Below, piece by piece: positions 1-20,203 of a DNA stretch of 38,080 nt (its first letter is position 1; each line of letters starts with the position of its first letter). The translations under genes and the position numbers were made by a program. Origin of the DNA: Selenomonadaceae bacterium (GTDB lineage Bacteria > Bacillota > Negativicutes > Selenomonadales > Selenomonadaceae); the NCBI GenBank assembly GCA_029338835.1, contig JAQYBD010000005.1, positions 1 to 38,080 of the forward strand, given 5' to 3'. The notes below the pieces were generated by a model. The model was not told the origin of the DNA. It was given only the letters and a program-made list of their open reading frames with translations, and ran no database searches.

Positions 1-656
1 GCATGGAGCGTATCGGAAAACTGGCCGGCCAGCGAATTCAGCAGCTGCCTTTGGAGGCGGGTGTTGTTGAGACAATCACCTTCAATCGATGCCATCCTTT
101 CAATCAGTTCACAGGCCGACACCATCGTGGCCATACGCACACAGCCGATGATTGTGACGTCATCCCTCAGATAGGAGCTGTACTGTGGAGAAAGCAGGAC
201 TTCCTTATCGACGAGATGGCCGACGCCTATAATATAGCGGGCCTGCCGCAATTTCTGGATGACCTGCTTGGCCGGCATGTCCTCATAGGCGATGATCTCG
301 AAATGGATATCGTTGATATGGTAATCGCGGCACATCTTCACCATGAGTTTGGCAAAGCGGTCATTGGAGTTGAAAATGTAGACTCGTTCGCCGGCAGGAA
401 TGTGCGAAAGGGCGATGAAAAACTCTGCTGTAGGCCTTAAGTCGAGTACGACGAGGGCTTCGGGCGGGATGAGGGAGAGCATTTTCTCCCGCTGTGTCAG
501 TGCGCATACATAGAGATCCGTGTCTTCGTGACCGGTAATGTTCGCACTGACCATACTACGTATGTAGACAGAGCCGCCGACAATCCGGCGTACGACGTGT
601 AATACTTCTGCGGCGTTGAGTTCGTTGCTGCCGGCAGCAATGATGCGAGTTGTCAT
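1..656 (-). CDS. Regulator-like protein, N-terminal part (runs off left edge)
   Basis: An open minus-strand frame begins at ATG 656-654 and continues uninterrupted to base 1, giving about 218 residues with no stop, so the C-terminus lies outside the window. A good ribosome site (AGAGGAAGG) ends 6-7 bases before the ATG. The protein starts MTTRIIAAGSNELNAAEVLH and alternates short beta-strand-like and helical stretches, as a soluble alpha/beta sensory domain would. No transmembrane segment or DNA-binding motif is visible in this part. It starts 16 bases after the LysR gene on the same strand, so the two are probably cotranscribed. I do not recognise the family with certainty. The N-terminal effector domain of a sigma-54-type activator is one guess, since the last visible residues look like a linker helix before a further domain. 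The existence of the gene is well supported; the function is not. Confidence 0.7.
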   Translation of the reverse strand, partial: MTTRIIAAGSNELNAAEVLHVVRRIVGGSVYIRSMVSANITGHEDTDLYVCALTQREKMLSLIPPEALVVLDLRPTAEFFIALSHIPAGERVYIFNSNDRFAKLMVKMCRDYHINDIHFEIIAYEDMPAKQVIQKLRQARYIIGVGHLVDKEVLLSPQYSSYLRDDVTIIGCVRMATMVSACELIERMASIEGDCLNNTRLQRQLLNSLAGQFSDTLH

Positions 657-672
657 GTGGATCCTTCCTCTC

Positions 673-1557
673 TCAACCATCATAAGATTCCTGTAGAAAT
701 GCATATAACTTTTCAGCGGCATGGGCAATCGTCCGTTTTTGTTTGCGTGCAATGGTCAATACGATGACCGGACTGTCAGCCAGAGGCACTTCTTTGACCA
801 TTTCGTTCTGGATGGCGCCGGACGGCAGGATGGCAATGCCGCTGCCCGAAATGATGAGACTGGCGATCATCTGAGGATATGTCGTTTCAAATATCGGACG
901 TTCCGTCAGATCTTGCTGCTGGAAGCAGTGATCGATGACCTGCCGGTAGCCGCAGGATTCAGGGGGCAGCAGGAGCAATTCCTGTCTCAAATCCTTGAAA
1001 TGAAGTTCCTGCCTGTGCGCAAGCAGATGGAATTGGGGAAGATAGGCGGAGAGGTGCTCCTGGTGAATGACTGCGCATTCCAGTGAAGGTTCTGCATCAA
1101 CTTCCTGCGGCAGGAGAGGAAGAAAGGCGAGATCAATCTGGTCTTCTTCCAGTGCGTGGCGCAACTCCTTGGTGTTGGCCTCAAGGAAACGGAACCGCAG
1201 CGTGGGATACATATTGTGAAATTTTGCCAGCAGGAACGAACTCACGGCTAAGCCGGTCAGTGGTGAAAGTCCGATCTGGATGATGCCGCTGGACAGATTC
1301 TTGAGTTCTGCGGCCTTCTGCGCGGCCAGCGAAATATCTTTCATGACGGTGCCCGCGTGCTGATAGAAAATCTTGCCTTCGCTCGTCAGGATGGCCTGCT
1401 TTTTATTGCGGTCAAACAGGACCAGTCCGAGTTCATCCTCCAGTTTCTTGATGGCTGTCGTGACGGACGGCTGGGAAACGTAGAGTTGTTCTGCGGCGCG
1501 CGTAAAACTCCCGGTGTTGCTGACCGCTAAAAAATATTCTAATTGTTTCAGTTCCAT
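673..1557 (-). CDS. LysR-family transcriptional regulator (AbgR/CynR-like)
   Basis: A 294-residue protein with the classic LysR layout: an N-terminal winged helix-turn-helix (about residues 1-60, with the stretch FTRAAEQLYVSQPSVTTAIK) followed by a two-lobed periplasmic-binding-like effector domain (about 90-290). The length is normal for the family. I chose ATG 1557 because GGAGG lies 7 bases upstream; a TTG six bases earlier is in frame but only 1 base from that site. The gene is divergent from the hydrolase/AbgA/carrier operon across 212 bases that hold a strong palindrome, which is the usual arrangement for a LysR activator and its target. E. coli abgR is likewise divergent from abgABT. 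The regulatory role is inferred from this layout and the inducer is unknown. Confidence 0.93.
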   Translation of the reverse strand: MELKQLEYFLAVSNTGSFTRAAEQLYVSQPSVTTAIKKLEDELGLVLFDRNKKQAILTSEGKIFYQHAGTVMKDISLAAQKAAELKNLSSGIIQIGLSPLTGLAVSSFLLAKFHNMYPTLRFRFLEANTKELRHALEEDQIDLAFLPLLPQEVDAEPSLECAVIHQEHLSAYLPQFHLLAHRQELHFKDLRQELLLLPPESCGYRQVIDHCFQQQDLTERPIFETTYPQMIASLIISGSGIAILPSGAIQNEMVKEVPLADSPVIVLTIARKQKRTIAHAAEKLYAFLQESYDG

Positions 1558-1680
1558 GACCAATCCTCCGGTAATGGTTTTGTTATGATGTTATTAGTAT
1601 AACAGGAGAACGGCTTATAATATAGACTTCACTCATTTATGATACCTCTTATTATTGACGTTTCCTATGATTTGATTCAA

Positions 1681-1769: not shown

Positions 1770-3044
1770 ATGGCAAGAGAGCAAATTCTTCCGCAGGAAG
1801 ATCGTGACTGGATTAAGAGGATGTTTGCTCAGCTCGCTGAGATCGGGAAGACTGGGCATGGATATGAGCGCGTGGCATATACGCCGAACGACTGGCAGGC
1901 GAAGCAGCTGATCCGGGATGCCATGGAACAAGCTGGTCTTGTCGTCCATATGGATGCTGCGGGCAATCTCATCGGGCGCCTGGAAGGACGTCGGCCGGAG
2001 TTGCCGGCTGTTGTGACAGGGTCACATATCGATACGGTTCCTTCCGGAGGAAATTTTGATGGGTCAGTCGGAGTGATTGGTTCACTTTGTGCCATACGGA
2101 GAATTTTGCGGGAAGGGCGGCCGCTTCGTTCCATGGAATTATGGGTATTCGCCGGTCATGAATCCAGCCGTTTTGGCTTTGCGCATCTGGGCAGCCGCTC
2201 AATCTGTGGCTTTACCGAGACGGAAAAATGGAGCAAACTGGTTGACCGCTATGGAAAGACCATTCCGGAAGTCTTTCGGGAATGCGGTTTGGACTTTTCT
2301 CAGCTTGCTAGCTGTGAACGTGATTTTTCCCAGCTCGCGTCCTTTACAGAACTGCATATCGAACAGGGGCCGGTGCTTGAACAGCATCATACACCCATTG
2401 GTATCGTAACCGATATTGCAGCGCCCATCCGCCTGTCCGTACAGGTGAAGGGGATGGCTGCTCATTCCGGTACGACCCCGATGGACAATCGTCATGATGC
2501 GCTGGCCGCCGCTGCCCGCATGGTCCTTTCCGTGCGGGAACGGGCGCGTTCCTATGCGGAAGAAGGCATTGTCGGTACGGTGGGATATATGCAGGTCAAG
2601 CCCAATGCGATGAATATCATTCCTGGTGAAGTGGAGTTCTGGATCGATGTACGCGGGCGGGATTTTTCACGGACGAGCCATGTCATCGATCTCGTGCGTG
2701 CCGACCTCCTGAGCATTGCCAGAGAGGAAAAAATCAATGTATCCATTGACACAATTTCCGTCACTAAGCCCGTTCATCTGAACGATCATCTGATTCAACT
2801 GGCTGCCAGGATATGCGAAGAGAATCATATTCCCTATCTTAATATGGTGGGCGGCGGCGGACACGATACACAGGAAATTGCCCGCAGAATGCCGGCCGTC
2901 GTGTTGCATATTCCCTGCCGCAATGGCGTCAGTCACGCTCCTGATGAATTCACCAGTTTGGAAAGCATTTATTATGGCGTGAAAGCTTTGACGGCGCTGC
3001 TGGCTTGTCAGGCAAAAGCTGTTTCAATCGATGGTCTTGCATAA
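1770..3044 (+). CDS. M20-family Zn-dependent hydrolase (carbamoylase/allantoate amidohydrolase type)
   Basis: A 424-residue member of the hydantoinase/carbamoylase branch of M20 metallopeptidases, which cleave N-carbamoyl or amide bonds with two metals. Visible motifs: GSHIDTVPSGGNFDGSVGV (metal His and bridging Asp, near residues 87-99), HESSRFG (metal Glu, near 130), TELHIEQGPVLE (metal His, near 195), the small dimerisation lid domain from about 210 to 325, and SHAPDEF near the C-terminus (metal His). In this family the residue before the metal Glu is normally also Glu and is the catalytic base; here it is His. The start ATG 1770 follows a GGGGGAG site by 5 bases; a TTG directly before it is less likely. 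It is the first gene of a three-gene operon with abgA and a carrier. Substrate unknown. Confidence 0.88.
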   Translation: MAREQILPQEDRDWIKRMFAQLAEIGKTGHGYERVAYTPNDWQAKQLIRDAMEQAGLVVHMDAAGNLIGRLEGRRPELPAVVTGSHIDTVPSGGNFDGSVGVIGSLCAIRRILREGRPLRSMELWVFAGHESSRFGFAHLGSRSICGFTETEKWSKLVDRYGKTIPEVFRECGLDFSQLASCERDFSQLASFTELHIEQGPVLEQHHTPIGIVTDIAAPIRLSVQVKGMAAHSGTTPMDNRHDALAAAARMVLSVRERARSYAEEGIVGTVGYMQVKPNAMNIIPGEVEFWIDVRGRDFSRTSHVIDLVRADLLSIAREEKINVSIDTISVTKPVHLNDHLIQLAARICEENHIPYLNMVGGGGHDTQEIARRMPAVVLHIPCRNGVSHAPDEFTSLESIYYGVKALTALLACQAKAVSIDGLA

Positions 3045-3061
3045 GAGAGGAGAAGATGACA

Positions 3062-4384
3062 ATGGATATCCAGGAAACAATCATGAAGATGGCAGATGGC
3101 ATGAAAGATGGGCTCGTGACGCAGCGCCGCGATCTGCACATGCATCCGGAGCCAGCGTGGACAGAATTCCGTACGGCGGCGCTCGTGGCGGAGCAGCTGC
3201 ATGATCTCGGCTATGAGGTGCTGGCGGGCGAACAGGCCGTGGCCAAAGAATACATGATGGGTGTTCCGTCTGCCGAGGTCCTGGAGCAGTCACAGGCTCG
3301 CGCAATCCGTGAGGGTGCAGATCCTGCCTGGGTGAAGCGCATGCGGGGCGGCATGACCGGTGTCGTGGGCATCATGCATTTCAAGCAGCCCGGACCTGTC
3401 GTGGGCATACGCTTCGACATGGACTGCAACGACGTATCGGAAACGCAGGATGAGAAGCATCGCCCGAATGTCGAAGGCTTTGCCAGCCTGCATCCCGGTG
3501 CCATGCACGCCTGCGGCCACGATGGTCATACGACCGTGGGATTCGGGGTCGCCAAGATCCTGGCTTCGCTGAAGGATGAGTTGGCGGGAACCATCAAGTT
3601 GGTCTTCCAGCCGGCGGAGGAGGGTGTGCGTGGCGCCCGTGCCATGGTGGAACGCGGCGTGGTCGATGACGTGGATTTCATGATGGGCGCGCATTTCGGC
3701 TTCAAGATGAAGGAAACGGGCAGCATTGCCTGCAATGTAACAGGGTTCCTGGCCACGAGCAAATACGATGCCCATTATATCGGCAAGCCGGCTCATGCGG
3801 GAGCGGCACCGGAAAAGGGGAAGAATGCCCTGCTGGCTGCCGCCTGTGCAACGCTGAACCTGCATGCCATTTCCCGTCATTCGCAGGGCATCACCCGCAT
3901 CAATGTGGGACATCTTGAAGCCGGCAGCGGCCGCAACATCATCGGCGATACCGGCCTCATCAAGCTGGAGACACGCGGCGGCTCCAGTGCTATCAATCAT
4001 TATGTGGAAGAGGAGGCCCTGCGCATCATCAAGGCTGCTGCTGCCATGTACGATGTACAGTACAGGATTGAGCAGGTCGGCGGTGCAGCCGGTGGCAGCA
4101 ATTCGCCAAAGCTGGCCGCATATCTGATGCGTCAGGCCAAATCGCTTGGCATCTTCCATAAAATCGTGGATAAATGCCCGTTCGGAGCCAGCGAAGATTA
4201 TTCATACTTCATGGAACGCGTGCAGTCTCATGGCGGCCAGGCCGCGTACATGATGATTGGTGCAAATCTGGCTGCCGGTCATCATGATGCACATTTCGAC
4301 TTTGATGAAACCGCCCTGGTGTACTCTCTGAAAATGCTCGCCAGCTCGGCAGCCGGACTGCTTCTGGGGCAGTCGATGGAATGA
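3062..4384 (+). CDS. abgA: p-Aminobenzoyl-glutamate hydrolase subunit A-like M20 amidohydrolase
   Basis: A 440-residue M20D amidohydrolase that resembles E. coli AbgA over its full length, as far as I can recall that sequence. Shared features include the early VEFRTA/TEFRTAALVAEQLH region, the long insert before the metal site, FASLHPGAMHACGHDGH (metal ligands), QPAEEGVRGARAMV (catalytic and metal Glu pair intact), TRINVGHLEAGSGRN, and the C-terminal AAGHHDAHFDFDE. AbgA with AbgB cleaves p-aminobenzoyl-glutamate, a folate breakdown product; related enzymes act on N-acyl amino acids. AbgB is not seen here, so the true substrate may differ. The start is ATG 3062, 9 bases after AGGAG; ATG 3056 is an in-frame alternative with poor spacing. 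The gap to the preceding hydrolase gene is 17 bases, indicating one operon. Confidence 0.9.
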   Translation: MDIQETIMKMADGMKDGLVTQRRDLHMHPEPAWTEFRTAALVAEQLHDLGYEVLAGEQAVAKEYMMGVPSAEVLEQSQARAIREGADPAWVKRMRGGMTGVVGIMHFKQPGPVVGIRFDMDCNDVSETQDEKHRPNVEGFASLHPGAMHACGHDGHTTVGFGVAKILASLKDELAGTIKLVFQPAEEGVRGARAMVERGVVDDVDFMMGAHFGFKMKETGSIACNVTGFLATSKYDAHYIGKPAHAGAAPEKGKNALLAAACATLNLHAISRHSQGITRINVGHLEAGSGRNIIGDTGLIKLETRGGSSAINHYVEEEALRIIKAAAAMYDVQYRIEQVGGAAGGSNSPKLAAYLMRQAKSLGIFHKIVDKCPFGASEDYSYFMERVQSHGGQAAYMMIGANLAAGHHDAHFDFDETALVYSLKMLASSAAGLLLGQSME

Positions 4385-4414: not shown

Positions 4415-5665
4415 ATGATTATTGCAGGTATCGTTATCGTCATTGCGACCTTCGTTCTGATCGTCAAGAAATATGAAACTCGTTTTGTGCTGTTTATCTC
4501 CGGCATGCTGATGTGCCTGATTGGCGGTATGCTGTCGGCCGGCACGACGGCGTTCATCAAGGAATTCACCAACGCCGGCCTGGTGCCGACCATCTGCACC
4601 GTACTCGGCTTCAGCTATGTCATGGAATATACGGGTTGTTCCGCCCACATGGTCTACTGCATTTCCTCGGCACTGAAGCGTGTCCCCATCATCATCATAC
4701 CAGGTGCTGTCATTGTCACCTTTCTCGTGAACATCGCCCTGCCGAGCGCAGCTGGTTGTGCAGCGGCTGTCGGCGCACTCCTGATTCCGGCACTGATCCG
4801 CACGGGCGTGCATCCGGCTATGGCGGCATCGGCCGTATTCTTGGGAACCTGGGGCAGTACGATGAGTCCGGGTCTCATGTTCAATCCGCAGGTCGCCCAG
4901 CTGGCCGGGATGGATGTCATGAGTGTCATCGCGCTCTTTTCCCGCCAAGTACTGTTCGCGGCCGTGATTGCTGCGGTACTCCTGACGGTCATTGCCTGGG
5001 TGCGCAAAGAAAACAAGGGCTATGTAGCATCGAAAGATGTTGAGGACAGCAAGGACTTCCACGTTAATTATTTAAAGGCCGTCATGCCGGTCGTGCCGCT
5101 TGTGCTGCTGGTTCTTGGCAGCAAGCAGGTGGCTGTGATCCCGGAAATCTCAGTGCCGGTGGCCATGCTTGTCGGTGTTGCGCTCGGCATGCTCCTCGTG
5201 CGTCCGAATATCAAGGAGACAACCTGTAAGTTCTTCCGCGGTGTTGGCGACGGCATGTGTGATGTCGTGGGCCTGATTGCGGCAGCTGCCTGCTTTACAG
5301 CTGGTATGAAAGTCATCGGCCTTACGGATGCACTCATCGAGGCCATGAAGAGCTCGCAGCAGATTGCACAGGTTGCAGCTGCGTACGGTCCGTTCCTGAT
5401 CGGTGCAATCTCAGGCTCCGGCAACGCGGCGGCGCTAGCCTTTAATGGTGCGGTCACGCCGTTTGCGAATGAGTTCGGCTATGGTATCGCGGAACTCGGC
5501 TCCATGGCACAGATTGGTGCCGGACTCGGACGTTGCATGAGCCCGGTCGCCGGAGCCGGCATCATCTTGGCAAAGATGGCCGGTGTCAATCCGATGGAAC
5601 TGGCGAAACGCAATGCCATACCTACCATCGTGGCTGCGTTCGTGGTCATGATTACCCTACTGTAA
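4415..5665 (+). CDS. DcuC-like anaerobic C4-dicarboxylate/organic anion carrier
   Basis: A 416-residue, very hydrophobic integral membrane protein with about 10-12 helices and Gly/Ala/Ser-rich re-entrant stretches such as LPSAAGCAAAVGALLIP and GTWGSTMSPGLM, typical of the DcuC family of the ion-transporter superfamily. DcuC proteins move fumarate, succinate and related anions in anaerobes. The gene follows abgA by 30 bases with a strong AGGAGGA site before ATG 4415, and a terminator follows its stop. Its place after two amidohydrolases suggests it imports their substrate or exports a product, but that is inference. E. coli uses the unrelated AbgT at the equivalent position. The family call is fairly firm; the substrate is open. 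Confidence 0.82.
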   Translation: MIIAGIVIVIATFVLIVKKYETRFVLFISGMLMCLIGGMLSAGTTAFIKEFTNAGLVPTICTVLGFSYVMEYTGCSAHMVYCISSALKRVPIIIIPGAVIVTFLVNIALPSAAGCAAAVGALLIPALIRTGVHPAMAASAVFLGTWGSTMSPGLMFNPQVAQLAGMDVMSVIALFSRQVLFAAVIAAVLLTVIAWVRKENKGYVASKDVEDSKDFHVNYLKAVMPVVPLVLLVLGSKQVAVIPEISVPVAMLVGVALGMLLVRPNIKETTCKFFRGVGDGMCDVVGLIAAAACFTAGMKVIGLTDALIEAMKSSQQIAQVAAAYGPFLIGAISGSGNAAALAFNGAVTPFANEFGYGIAELGSMAQIGAGLGRCMSPVAGAGIILAKMAGVNPMELAKRNAIPTIVAAFVVMITLL

Positions 5666-17683: not shown

Positions 17684-18457
17684 TTAAATGTAATATTCGG
17701 TTTTGTCTTCCGGCTTGAGGGAGAAGGCTTCAAAGACGCGGTCGCGTATATGCAGGAAATCCGGACTGGTACGATCGCGCTGCCCGTGCATATCGACGGG
17801 AATGATGGTTTTGATGTGTCCGGGATTGGGGGTCATGATGACGATGCGATCCGCCAGGACAACCGATTCATCGATATCGTGTGTCACGAAGATGATGGTC
17901 TTGTGCTGCTGGCGGCAGATGGAAGAAATCTCGTCCTGCAGTTTCATGCGCGTCAGTGCATCGAGTGCGGCAAAGGGTTCGTCCATGAACAGGATCTCTG
18001 GATCCACCGCCAGGGCACGGGCAATGGCTACGCGCTGCTGCATGCCGCCGGATAGCTCAGAAGGATGATGATGACGAAAATCCTGCAGACCCACGACTTC
18101 CAGATAGTGTTCTGCTATTTCATGGCGTTGCTCTGCAGGAATCTGCAGGCTTTCCAGCCCCAGCTCGACATTCTTTTCTACCGTCCGCCAGGGAAGCAGG
18201 CCATAATTCTGGAAAATCGTGACATTGCGGATCGTGGGAGCATGGACCGGTTTTCCTTCGATGGATACCGTTCCAGAGGTTACCTGATCGAATCCTGCGA
18301 GGATATTGAGCAGGGTACTCTTGCCACAGCCGGAAGGTCCGAGCAGACAGATGAATTCTCCTCGTTCAATCTGGAGGTCTACGTGGCTGAGTGCCTGGAA
18401 CACCTTGTCTTTTTGCCGGTAAGTACGGGATACGTCGCGAATATCGATATAGCTCAA
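17684..18457 (-). CDS. ABC transporter ATPase, SsuB/TauB/NrtD type
   Basis: A 257-residue nucleotide-binding subunit that powers import through the partner permease. Walker A is LLGPSGCGKSTLL (near residue 40), the Q-loop is within FQNYGLLPWRTV, the signature is ELSGGMQQRVAIARAL, Walker B is EILFMDEPFAALD, and the switch His is in IIFVTHDIDESV. The FQxxxLLPW form and the length are typical of sulfonate/taurine/nitrate importers. I chose TTG 18457, which has GGAGG 7 bases upstream; the longer in-frame reading overlaps the permease gene and adds nothing conserved. It is the last gene of a three-gene minus-strand operon. Substrate unknown. Confidence 0.9.
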   Translation of the reverse strand: MSYIDIRDVSRTYRQKDKVFQALSHVDLQIERGEFICLLGPSGCGKSTLLNILAGFDQVTSGTVSIEGKPVHAPTIRNVTIFQNYGLLPWRTVEKNVELGLESLQIPAEQRHEIAEHYLEVVGLQDFRHHHPSELSGGMQQRVAIARALAVDPEILFMDEPFAALDALTRMKLQDEISSICRQQHKTIIFVTHDIDESVVLADRIVIMTPNPGHIKTIIPVDMHGQRDRTSPDFLHIRDRVFEAFSLKPEDKTEYYI

Positions 18458-18458
18458 A

Positions 18459-19256
18459 TCAATTCCTCCTTTTATGCATGCCCCAGAGACGGCAGATGCG
18501 CTGTTCAATCAAACGGACGGTACTGTCGAGCAGGAGTCCCAGGATACCGATGGTCAGGATGGCTGCCATGAGCAGATCGGCACGCAGATTATTGCGGGCA
18601 TCGATGATCAGGAAGCCCAGGCCGGACTGCGCGCCAACCATCTCTCCGGCAACCAGGAATACCCAGGCTGTTCCCAGGGCGAGATGGAGTCCGGTAGCAA
18701 TGCGTGGGAAGATAGCGGGGAAGACAATCTTGGTCAGGATATGGGGCTGACGGATACCGAAGTTCCTTGCTACTTTCAGATAAACCGGGTCAATATCGCC
18801 TACAGCAGATACAGTGGCGAGGAGTACGGGGAAGAAGGCGGCGATGAAGATGATGACAAGTGCAGGCATTTCGCCGATGCCGAAGAATAAAACGATAAAA
18901 GGCAGCCAGGCCATCGGTGAGATCGGGCGGAGTACCTGGGCGATGGGATTGAGGAAAGCCCAGATTCCCTTATACCAGCCAAGGATCAGGCCAAGTGCCA
19001 TGGCGAGGAGGACCGAGGTGAGATAGCCAATCAGGAAGCGGCCCAGGCTGGCGGCGATATCCGCTGTCAGGACGCCGTCGTGCAGGAGTTCCTGGAATCC
19101 CGTCAGCGTATGGGATGGCGTGGGGAAGAGTGCCTCGTTCCAGCCGCCCAGCGTGGCTGTCAGCTGCCAGCTGACCAGGACGATGGCCAGAGCCCCGCAG
19201 ATATGAAGCAGATTTTTCATGATGTGTACACAACCTTTCCGGTAAAACCTTCTCAT
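18459..19256 (-). CDS. ABC transporter permease, SsuC/TauC type
   Basis: A 265-residue inner membrane protein with about six helices. The binding-protein-dependent permease EAA loop reads YLKVARNFGIRQPHILTKIV near residue 165-185, which docks the ATPase. Conserved neighbours are ISPMAWLPFIVLFFGIGE and GTAWVFLVAGEM. ATG 19256 forms an ATGA overlap with the stop of the binding-protein gene, suggesting coupled translation. ATG 19220 (MKNLLHICGA) is a real alternative that starts closer to the first helix, but its ribosome site is 13 bases away. The start is therefore uncertain. Confidence 0.9.
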   Translation of the reverse strand: MRRFYRKGCVHIMKNLLHICGALAIVLVSWQLTATLGGWNEALFPTPSHTLTGFQELLHDGVLTADIAASLGRFLIGYLTSVLLAMALGLILGWYKGIWAFLNPIAQVLRPISPMAWLPFIVLFFGIGEMPALVIIFIAAFFPVLLATVSAVGDIDPVYLKVARNFGIRQPHILTKIVFPAIFPRIATGLHLALGTAWVFLVAGEMVGAQSGLGFLIIDARNNLRADLLMAAILTIGILGLLLDSTVRLIEQRICRLWGMHKRRN

Positions 19257-20203
19257 TCCCATAATGTTGGATCGACGAATTCCTCGTATGACGGTGCGGA
19301 CTTGAGCAGAGCTTCTGCCTGCATCCGCTGGATCAATTCGTCATAAGCCGGTTTGCTCAGCATCAGGTCGTCATAAGAGATCCATTGCAGCGAGAGATCT
19401 AAGATCGGCCCTTTGGCTTTGAGGTACTTGAGGGCGATTTCCTTTTGTTTTTCCGGATGCTGGGTGAGATACTGTCCTGCTTCTTTGTATTCCTGTACCA
19501 TGGCATGGGCCAGTTCGTGATTCCCCTCTAAAAAATCGCCGTTGAAGACCAGGGCACAGCATACGCTGTCCGGCCATAACTCGCGGGTATCCGTTAAGAC
19601 TTTGCCGGTATCGAGTACTACGGATTTGGCTCCGAATGGTTCAGCTACGCAATAGCCGGCAATCTGTCCCTGGGCAAGGCCTGCAGGCATTTCTGGTGGT
19701 GACATCTCGACGACCGTGAGATCCTTTTCCGTCATGCCGTGTGCGGCCAGCAGCTGATCGAGCAGCAATTTGTGAGAAGACTGTTTGTGCGGGATGGCAA
19801 AGACCTTTCCCCGCAGATCTTCGACCCGGTGGATATCTTTGCCGACGATGATGGCATTGCCGTCTTTGTGACCAAGTGCTGCAGCCTGGAGCGGGATGCC
19901 CTGTTCTCGTGCTTTGACCGCGAGTTCGACGAGTACAGAAGCTCCGTCGACTTTGCCGGTATTCAAGGCATCCATGAGTTCTGGCCAGGAACCGTACTTG
20001 ATGAGTTCGATCTTTATTGGCCCATCTGGCGTCTCCAGTTCTTTTGCTGCAAAGAGCGGCAATGCGTGCGTGATGGGGAGATACGCGATGCGGATTGTCC
20101 GCACGCCGTTCTCGGCAGGGCGTGGCGTGGAAGGACTCTGCCCGCAGCCGGCAAGCAGCATCGTACTGATCAGGAAGACAAAAAGCAGGAGTAGTTTTTT
20201 CAT
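19253..20203 (-). CDS. Substrate-binding lipoprotein of the ABC importer (SsuA/NMT1-like)
   Basis: A 316-residue secreted lipoprotein. The signal peptide MKKLLLLFVFLISTMLLAGC ends in a lipobox (LAGC, Cys 20 would be lipidated). The mature part has the two-lobe SsuA/TauA/THI5-like fold, with IRIAYLPITHALPLFAAKEL after the leader, LPDLMDALN-type GSWPELMDALNTGKVDGA near residue 75-90, and AGYCVAEPFGA near 200, the typical hinge. This family binds sulfonates, nitrate, bicarbonate, pyrimidines and others, so the ligand cannot be named. AGAGGT lies 6 bases before ATG 20203. It is first in the operon, behind a near-consensus promoter. Confidence 0.9.
   Translation of the reverse strand: MKKLLLLFVFLISTMLLAGCGQSPSTPRPAENGVRTIRIAYLPITHALPLFAAKELETPDGPIKIELIKYGSWPELMDALNTGKVDGASVLVELAVKAREQGIPLQAAALGHKDGNAIIVGKDIHRVEDLRGKVFAIPHKQSSHKLLLDQLLAAHGMTEKDLTVVEMSPPEMPAGLAQGQIAGYCVAEPFGAKSVVLDTGKVLTDTRELWPDSVCCALVFNGDFLEGNHELAHAMVQEYKEAGQYLTQHPEKQKEIALKYLKAKGPILDLSLQWISYDDLMLSKPAYDELIQRMQAEALLKSAPSYEEFVDPTLWE

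Follow-up and report, generated by a model that had tools for sequence, protein, structure and literature searches.

The catalytic hallmark of the M20 carbamoylase-type family is a glutamate, which acts as the general base (position 130 in the numbering used here). We describe a homologue in which His occupies this position, the GHE protein, encoded in a stretch of 38,080 nucleotides from a Selenomonadaceae bacterium (GCA_029338835.1, contig JAQYBD010000005.1), the whole of which is called the window below. Among described systems, E. coli allantoate amidohydrolase AllC (PDB 1z2l, 2imo, 4pxd) resembles the GHE protein in fold, metal ligands and substrate-contact residues, but AllC has Glu where the GHE protein has His130. 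A. thaliana ureidoglycolate hydrolase, UAH (4pxb, 4pxe), is both its best phmmer match (244 bits) and its first Foldseek match (35% identity); the wild type (4pxe) has a Glu base, and the substrate complex (4pxb) has Ala. With the G. stearothermophilus L-N-carbamoylase (3n5f) and other TIGR01879 proteins, the GHE protein shares the family model, which it passes, and the dimerisation domain, but these proteins have a Glu base and an SGA loop where the GHE protein has GGG.

His130 and the catalytic glutamate

The GHE protein (424 amino acids, 1770..3044, + strand) is encoded by an ORF that is open from the ATG at 1770 to the stop codon ending at 3044; a TTG at 1767 directly precedes the ATG. It contains the Pfam domains Peptidase_M20 (PF01546, 71.5 bits, cut-off 24.6) and M20_dimer (PF07687, 26.7 bits, cut-off 21) and passes the NCBIfam family model TIGR01879 (368.1 bits, cut-off 204). 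Its structure model (mean pLDDT 96.5) shows the ordinary family fold and superposes on 4pxd with an rmsd of 1.8 across 409 residues (Z 52.5). The five metal-ligand residues of the family (His, Asp, Glu, His, His) are all present as H86, D97, E131, H196 and H389, in agreement with the initial annotation, which had considered the other metal ligands intact. In solved relatives, these residues bind the metals.

The general-base Glu of the family is absent, and His130 stands in its place. The motif GHESSRFG (residues 129–136) is encoded at 2154..2177 (+) by the codons GGT CAT GAA TCC AGC CGT TTT GGC, with the CAT of His130 at 2157–2159 and the codon of the metal ligand Glu131 at 2160–2162. The initial annotation had read the codons GGT CAT GAA TCC and the resulting motif correctly but had placed them a few bases off, at 2150–2176.

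Does His130 fall at the catalytic position? In phmmer alignments with solved structures, it matches the first of the two adjacent Glu residues (EE) of 4pxe and 3n5f. This residue is Glu in 4pxe and 1z2l and Ala in two complexes, 4pxb (ureidoglycolate with the A. thaliana enzyme) and 4pxd (allantoate with the E. coli enzyme); the substrate complex of yeast beta-alanine synthase (2v8h) is titled as the mutant E159A. Since relatives crystallised with substrate have Ala there, the position of His130 is the catalytic one. Whole-genome searches in the family, the class and the phylum yielded 165 rows for alignment, of which 164 were counted once a duplicate had been dropped. At position 130, 160 of these rows have Glu, three have His and one has Ser; H86, D97, H196 and H389 are invariant (164/164), and position 131 is E in 163/164 and D in 1/164. 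Thus, the proposed replacement of the catalytic Glu by His is borne out both by phmmer and by the 164-row alignment, in which His130 does align with the catalytic Glu rather than beside it. Since His130 replaces the general-base Glu, we regard the GHE protein as a homologue of the M20 hydantoinase/carbamoylase family and not as an established member of its catalytic class.

The two other His proteins come from G065, a genome of the same family but another genus (62% identity to the GHE protein), and from G610, which belongs to another family of the class (55%). Both orthologues carry the same FAGHESSRFGFAHLGS, which rules out a misalignment as well as a sequencing error; the initial annotation had argued against a single base error, since two changes separate CAT from a Glu codon. 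Silent differences surround the motif in these genomes and the frame is open over 424 codons, so the probability that an error, a misalignment or a pseudogene accounts for the His is practically nil. As the swap is found again in two further genomes, with the same genes beside it, it reflects a real variant of a putative enzyme and not an error.

The His clade and its co-occurring changes

The three His proteins are monophyletic (SH-aLRT 100 in the 164-row tree), and the clade is recovered at 100/100 in 36-row trees computed with and without 11 clade-marking columns. The initial annotation had proposed to check whether HESSRFG defines a clade and had named a distinct subgroup as one option; both are supported, FAGHESSRFGFAHLGS being common to all three members. 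The branch of the clade is long (0.81 in the 164-row tree, 1.0 in the 36-row tree). Between the window and G065 proteins, 152 of the 238 identical residues are encoded by different codons, which argues that the GHE protein is under purifying selection; the synonymous distance between the two genes is saturated.

How widespread is the His form? The window protein was searched against 189 family genomes; 398 phylum genomes were searched, as were 300 and 324 class genomes in overlapping samples. No further member of the clade was found in the 398 phylum genomes or, with the G610 protein as query (E<=1e-125), in the 324 class genomes. The distribution is patchy, since the same-genus sisters G040 and G041 lack the His form; their best matches are Glu-type (41–42% identity). 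Viral or mobile spread was considered and rejected: viral contigs contained no match to the G610 protein and none to the His-motif pattern. Compared by identity, motifs aside, the highest value in plasmid records was 39% among the best 20 of 1237 matches listed, and in phage records identities were at most 34.8% among the best 5 of 12 matches listed.

The G065 His-type gene (L038 4919-5069) is without the first ~30 residues: homology starts at query residue 31, and there is no usual start codon before the ATG at 4919. This shortening may be due to an assembly join or to a real truncation.

Several residues changed together with position 130. All three His proteins have (i) S361G, with Gly in 0/160 Glu rows (Ser in 160/160); (ii) A363G, with Gly in 0/160 (Ala in 154); (iii) F380H, with His in 0/160 (Phe in 152/160, the usual residue of Glu-type TIGR01879 proteins); and (iv) T139H, with His in 0/160 (Thr in 83). 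Positions 361 and 363 sit in the SGAGHD loop, which carries H365. M378V, Cys107 and Trp125 are also common to the three proteins and each occurs in 0/160 Glu rows, while Ile220 and Ser99, again present in all three, occur in 1/160 and 2/160. Besides the metal ligands, Q199, H232, N282, R295, H365 and D366 are kept throughout the clade. The co-occurring changes S361G, A363G, F380H and T139H, together with the conserved locus described below, go beyond the initial annotation.

A local rebuild of this size on a long clade branch could also mean that the protein is active but catalyses another reaction, in which His130 would be a metal ligand, an acid, or the base for a non-hydrolytic step (lyase, transfer or synthesis). 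We consider this quite unlikely, because the usual residues of the metal site and of substrate contact have not changed, as one would expect if the family's own chemistry were kept, and because no gene of the locus points to any particular other reaction.

The single Ser row is the L123 protein, from genome G581 of the same class (gene at L205 3694-4941, − strand), which reads AASESSRF around the catalytic-base position. L123 has Gly363; Ser361 and Phe380 are retained, while Asn282 and Thr236 are gone. Gly363 is thus found in 4/4 non-Glu rows and in none of the 160 Glu rows, and it may have a single origin in the former. Trees holding L123 and the His clade together are not rejected (p-AU 0.374), and the two are united in 34% of bootstrap trees (36-row tree). 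As this sister position is neither shown nor rejected, we do not claim a second independent loss of the Glu. By eye, ABC-transporter-like ORFs lie upstream of the L123 gene (L205), and likewise of a Glu-type gene in L068.

The locus and the allantoin question

A LysR-type regulator (673..1563, −; Pfam HTH_1 and LysR_substrate) is divergent from the GHE gene and shares 56% and 46% identity with its counterparts at the G065 and G610 loci. Downstream, at 4415..5665 (+), lies a DcuC_1-type transporter of the C4-dicarboxylate carrier family (NF037994, 366 bits, cut-off 100); it is 79% identical to the G065 DcuC, 69% to that of G610, and 47% to the DcuC proteins at Glu-type loci of G040 and G041. 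An orphan gene of ~290 amino acids (3..656, −) starts at 656 and runs off the end of the contig at base 1; it was recognised by its reading frame, a three-way alignment and 52% identity to the G610 protein. Complete copies are found at L038 5944-6804 and L066 6331-7230 (both +), next to the LysR or His gene. LysR, the DcuC-type transporter and the orphan gene are therefore present at all three His loci. The G065 and G610 copies of the orphan protein match no Pfam family above its cut-off and no NCBIfam model except one far below its cut-off; the structure model (mean pLDDT 59) gave neither a confident fold nor a Foldseek match at E<=0.001.

An exact 12-base direct repeat, TATAATATAGAC, occurs at 1616-1627 and 1687-1698, within the intergenic region that separates the His-type gene from its divergent LysR neighbour, and is a possible regulator-binding site. 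Further away, at 17684-20203 (−), three ORFs resemble by eye a nitrate/sulfonate/taurine-type ABC transporter (ATPase, permease and binding lipoprotein).

A second M20 amidohydrolase, AbgA-like (3056..4384, +, start at 3056 or 3062; TIGR01891, 289.5 bits, cut-off 153.75), stands between the GHE gene and the DcuC gene in the window only; no AbgA-like gene was found near the His-type gene of G065 or G610 within the stretch examined. At the search thresholds used, 37 family genomes have both a carbamoylase-type and an AbgA-like gene; in 22 of them, the window included, the two lie <=4 kb apart, a recurrent two-M20 module.

Could the GHE protein have lost all or nearly all of its activity and be kept, with metal and ligand still bound, for a binding, sensing or regulatory role, for instance as the partner of the AbgA-like protein? 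The catalytic Glu is absent, Ala at the same residue traps substrate in relatives, and L123, which has Ser130 and is also without Asn282, shows that copies in this family may lose the base as they decay or shift. However, every metal ligand and the other compared conserved polar residues are kept, and simple decay is unlikely because the rest of the active site is conserved. The fixation of His139, His380, Gly361 and Gly363 in three diverged proteins likewise exceeds mere loss, the gene has its own transporter and regulator alongside, and neither of the other two loci has the proposed AbgA-like partner within the stretch examined. We therefore find such a role doubtful, although it is the most credible of the alternatives.

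Around the GHE gene, where the ORFs were read by eye and in part scanned with profiles, we recognised none of the allantoin genes. Contig C38 of the same genome, however, encodes a canonical Glu-type paralogue (CEESSRF) together with an allantoinase nearby (370.2 bits to TIGR03178, cut-off 357.85), a protein of the Asp/Glu/hydantoin racemase family, an MFS transporter and an IclR regulator. This region (L206 1092-6890) is a likely allantoin catabolism cluster of the window's own genome. Since the canonical Glu paralogue lies beside the allantoinase, the His protein is probably not the allantoate amidohydrolase of its genome.

The GHE protein might nevertheless hydrolyse allantoate or N-carbamoyl amino acids in the ordinary way, with a residue next to His130 as the base and His130 itself incidental. 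It passes TIGR01879 and also, by one bit, the 'allantoate amidohydrolase' model NF006771 (400 bits, cut-off 399), a loose subfamily model that the G610 protein (415.1) and the Glu paralogue (448.3) pass as well. Against this, the GHE protein scores far below the cut-offs of the AllC equivalog TIGR03176 (281.9 vs 597.75 bits) and of the N-carbamyl-L-glutamate amidohydrolase ErtE, NF058540 (377.3 vs 520), the canonical paralogue sits beside the allantoinase in the same genome, and His130 is fixed in the clade. An ordinary hydrolase is thus very improbable.

A candidate imidazole base

What, then, might His130 do? On sequence grounds, the GHE protein is most likely a conserved, selected variant that would still be a metallohydrolase with His130 as its base. 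The full reading we prefer, to which we give a probability of about 0.45, is that of a conserved M20 subgroup in which His130 acts as the general base of an active di-metal hydrolase, with an N-substituted dicarboxylate imported by DcuC as the substrate. The carboxylate base of the M20 hydantoinase/carbamoylase family would have been exchanged for His130, whose imidazole would take a proton from metal-bound water; the metal-activated water would then attack a carbamoyl- or acyl-type bond. Metal-activated hydrolysis is proposed because the metal site and the contact residues are conserved. Gly361 and Gly363 in the His365 loop, His139 and His380 may be compensating adjustments around His130. A DcuC-type transporter at the locus suggests a dicarboxylate, and the substrate could accordingly be a dicarboxylic N-substituted amino acid brought in by this protein, not allantoate.

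Against this di-metal hydrolase reading, exchange of the catalytic Glu for Ala holds substrate in crystals of relatives, so that turnover may simply cease without the carboxylate, and the His clade comprises three genomes only. A possible precedent comes from the LAS zinc peptidases (lysostaphin and D-Ala-D-Ala metallopeptidases), in which Glu and His may both serve as the base beside a metal-bound water; these enzymes have one metal and a fold unrelated to M20. Passages of PMC4102407 do not confirm this precedent. No M20 enzyme with a His base came up among the listed results of literature searches or in passages of PMC10952681 and PMC4102407, a weak negative.

We see about even odds that an M20 lineage swapped its carboxylate base for an imidazole, rebuilt the surroundings (His acquired at 130, 139 and 380, Gly at 361 and 363) and took on a new substrate or reaction in a small DcuC/LysR pathway with an uncharacterised partner protein. 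For annotation, the locus carries a warning: the GHE protein passes an 'allantoate amidohydrolase' model by a single bit in a genome that has another, canonical candidate. If the His form is indeed natural and selected, it would show that the active site of a family defined by its Glu can run on another base, and the His clade would be a natural test case for which residues can act as the base in di-metal hydrolases.
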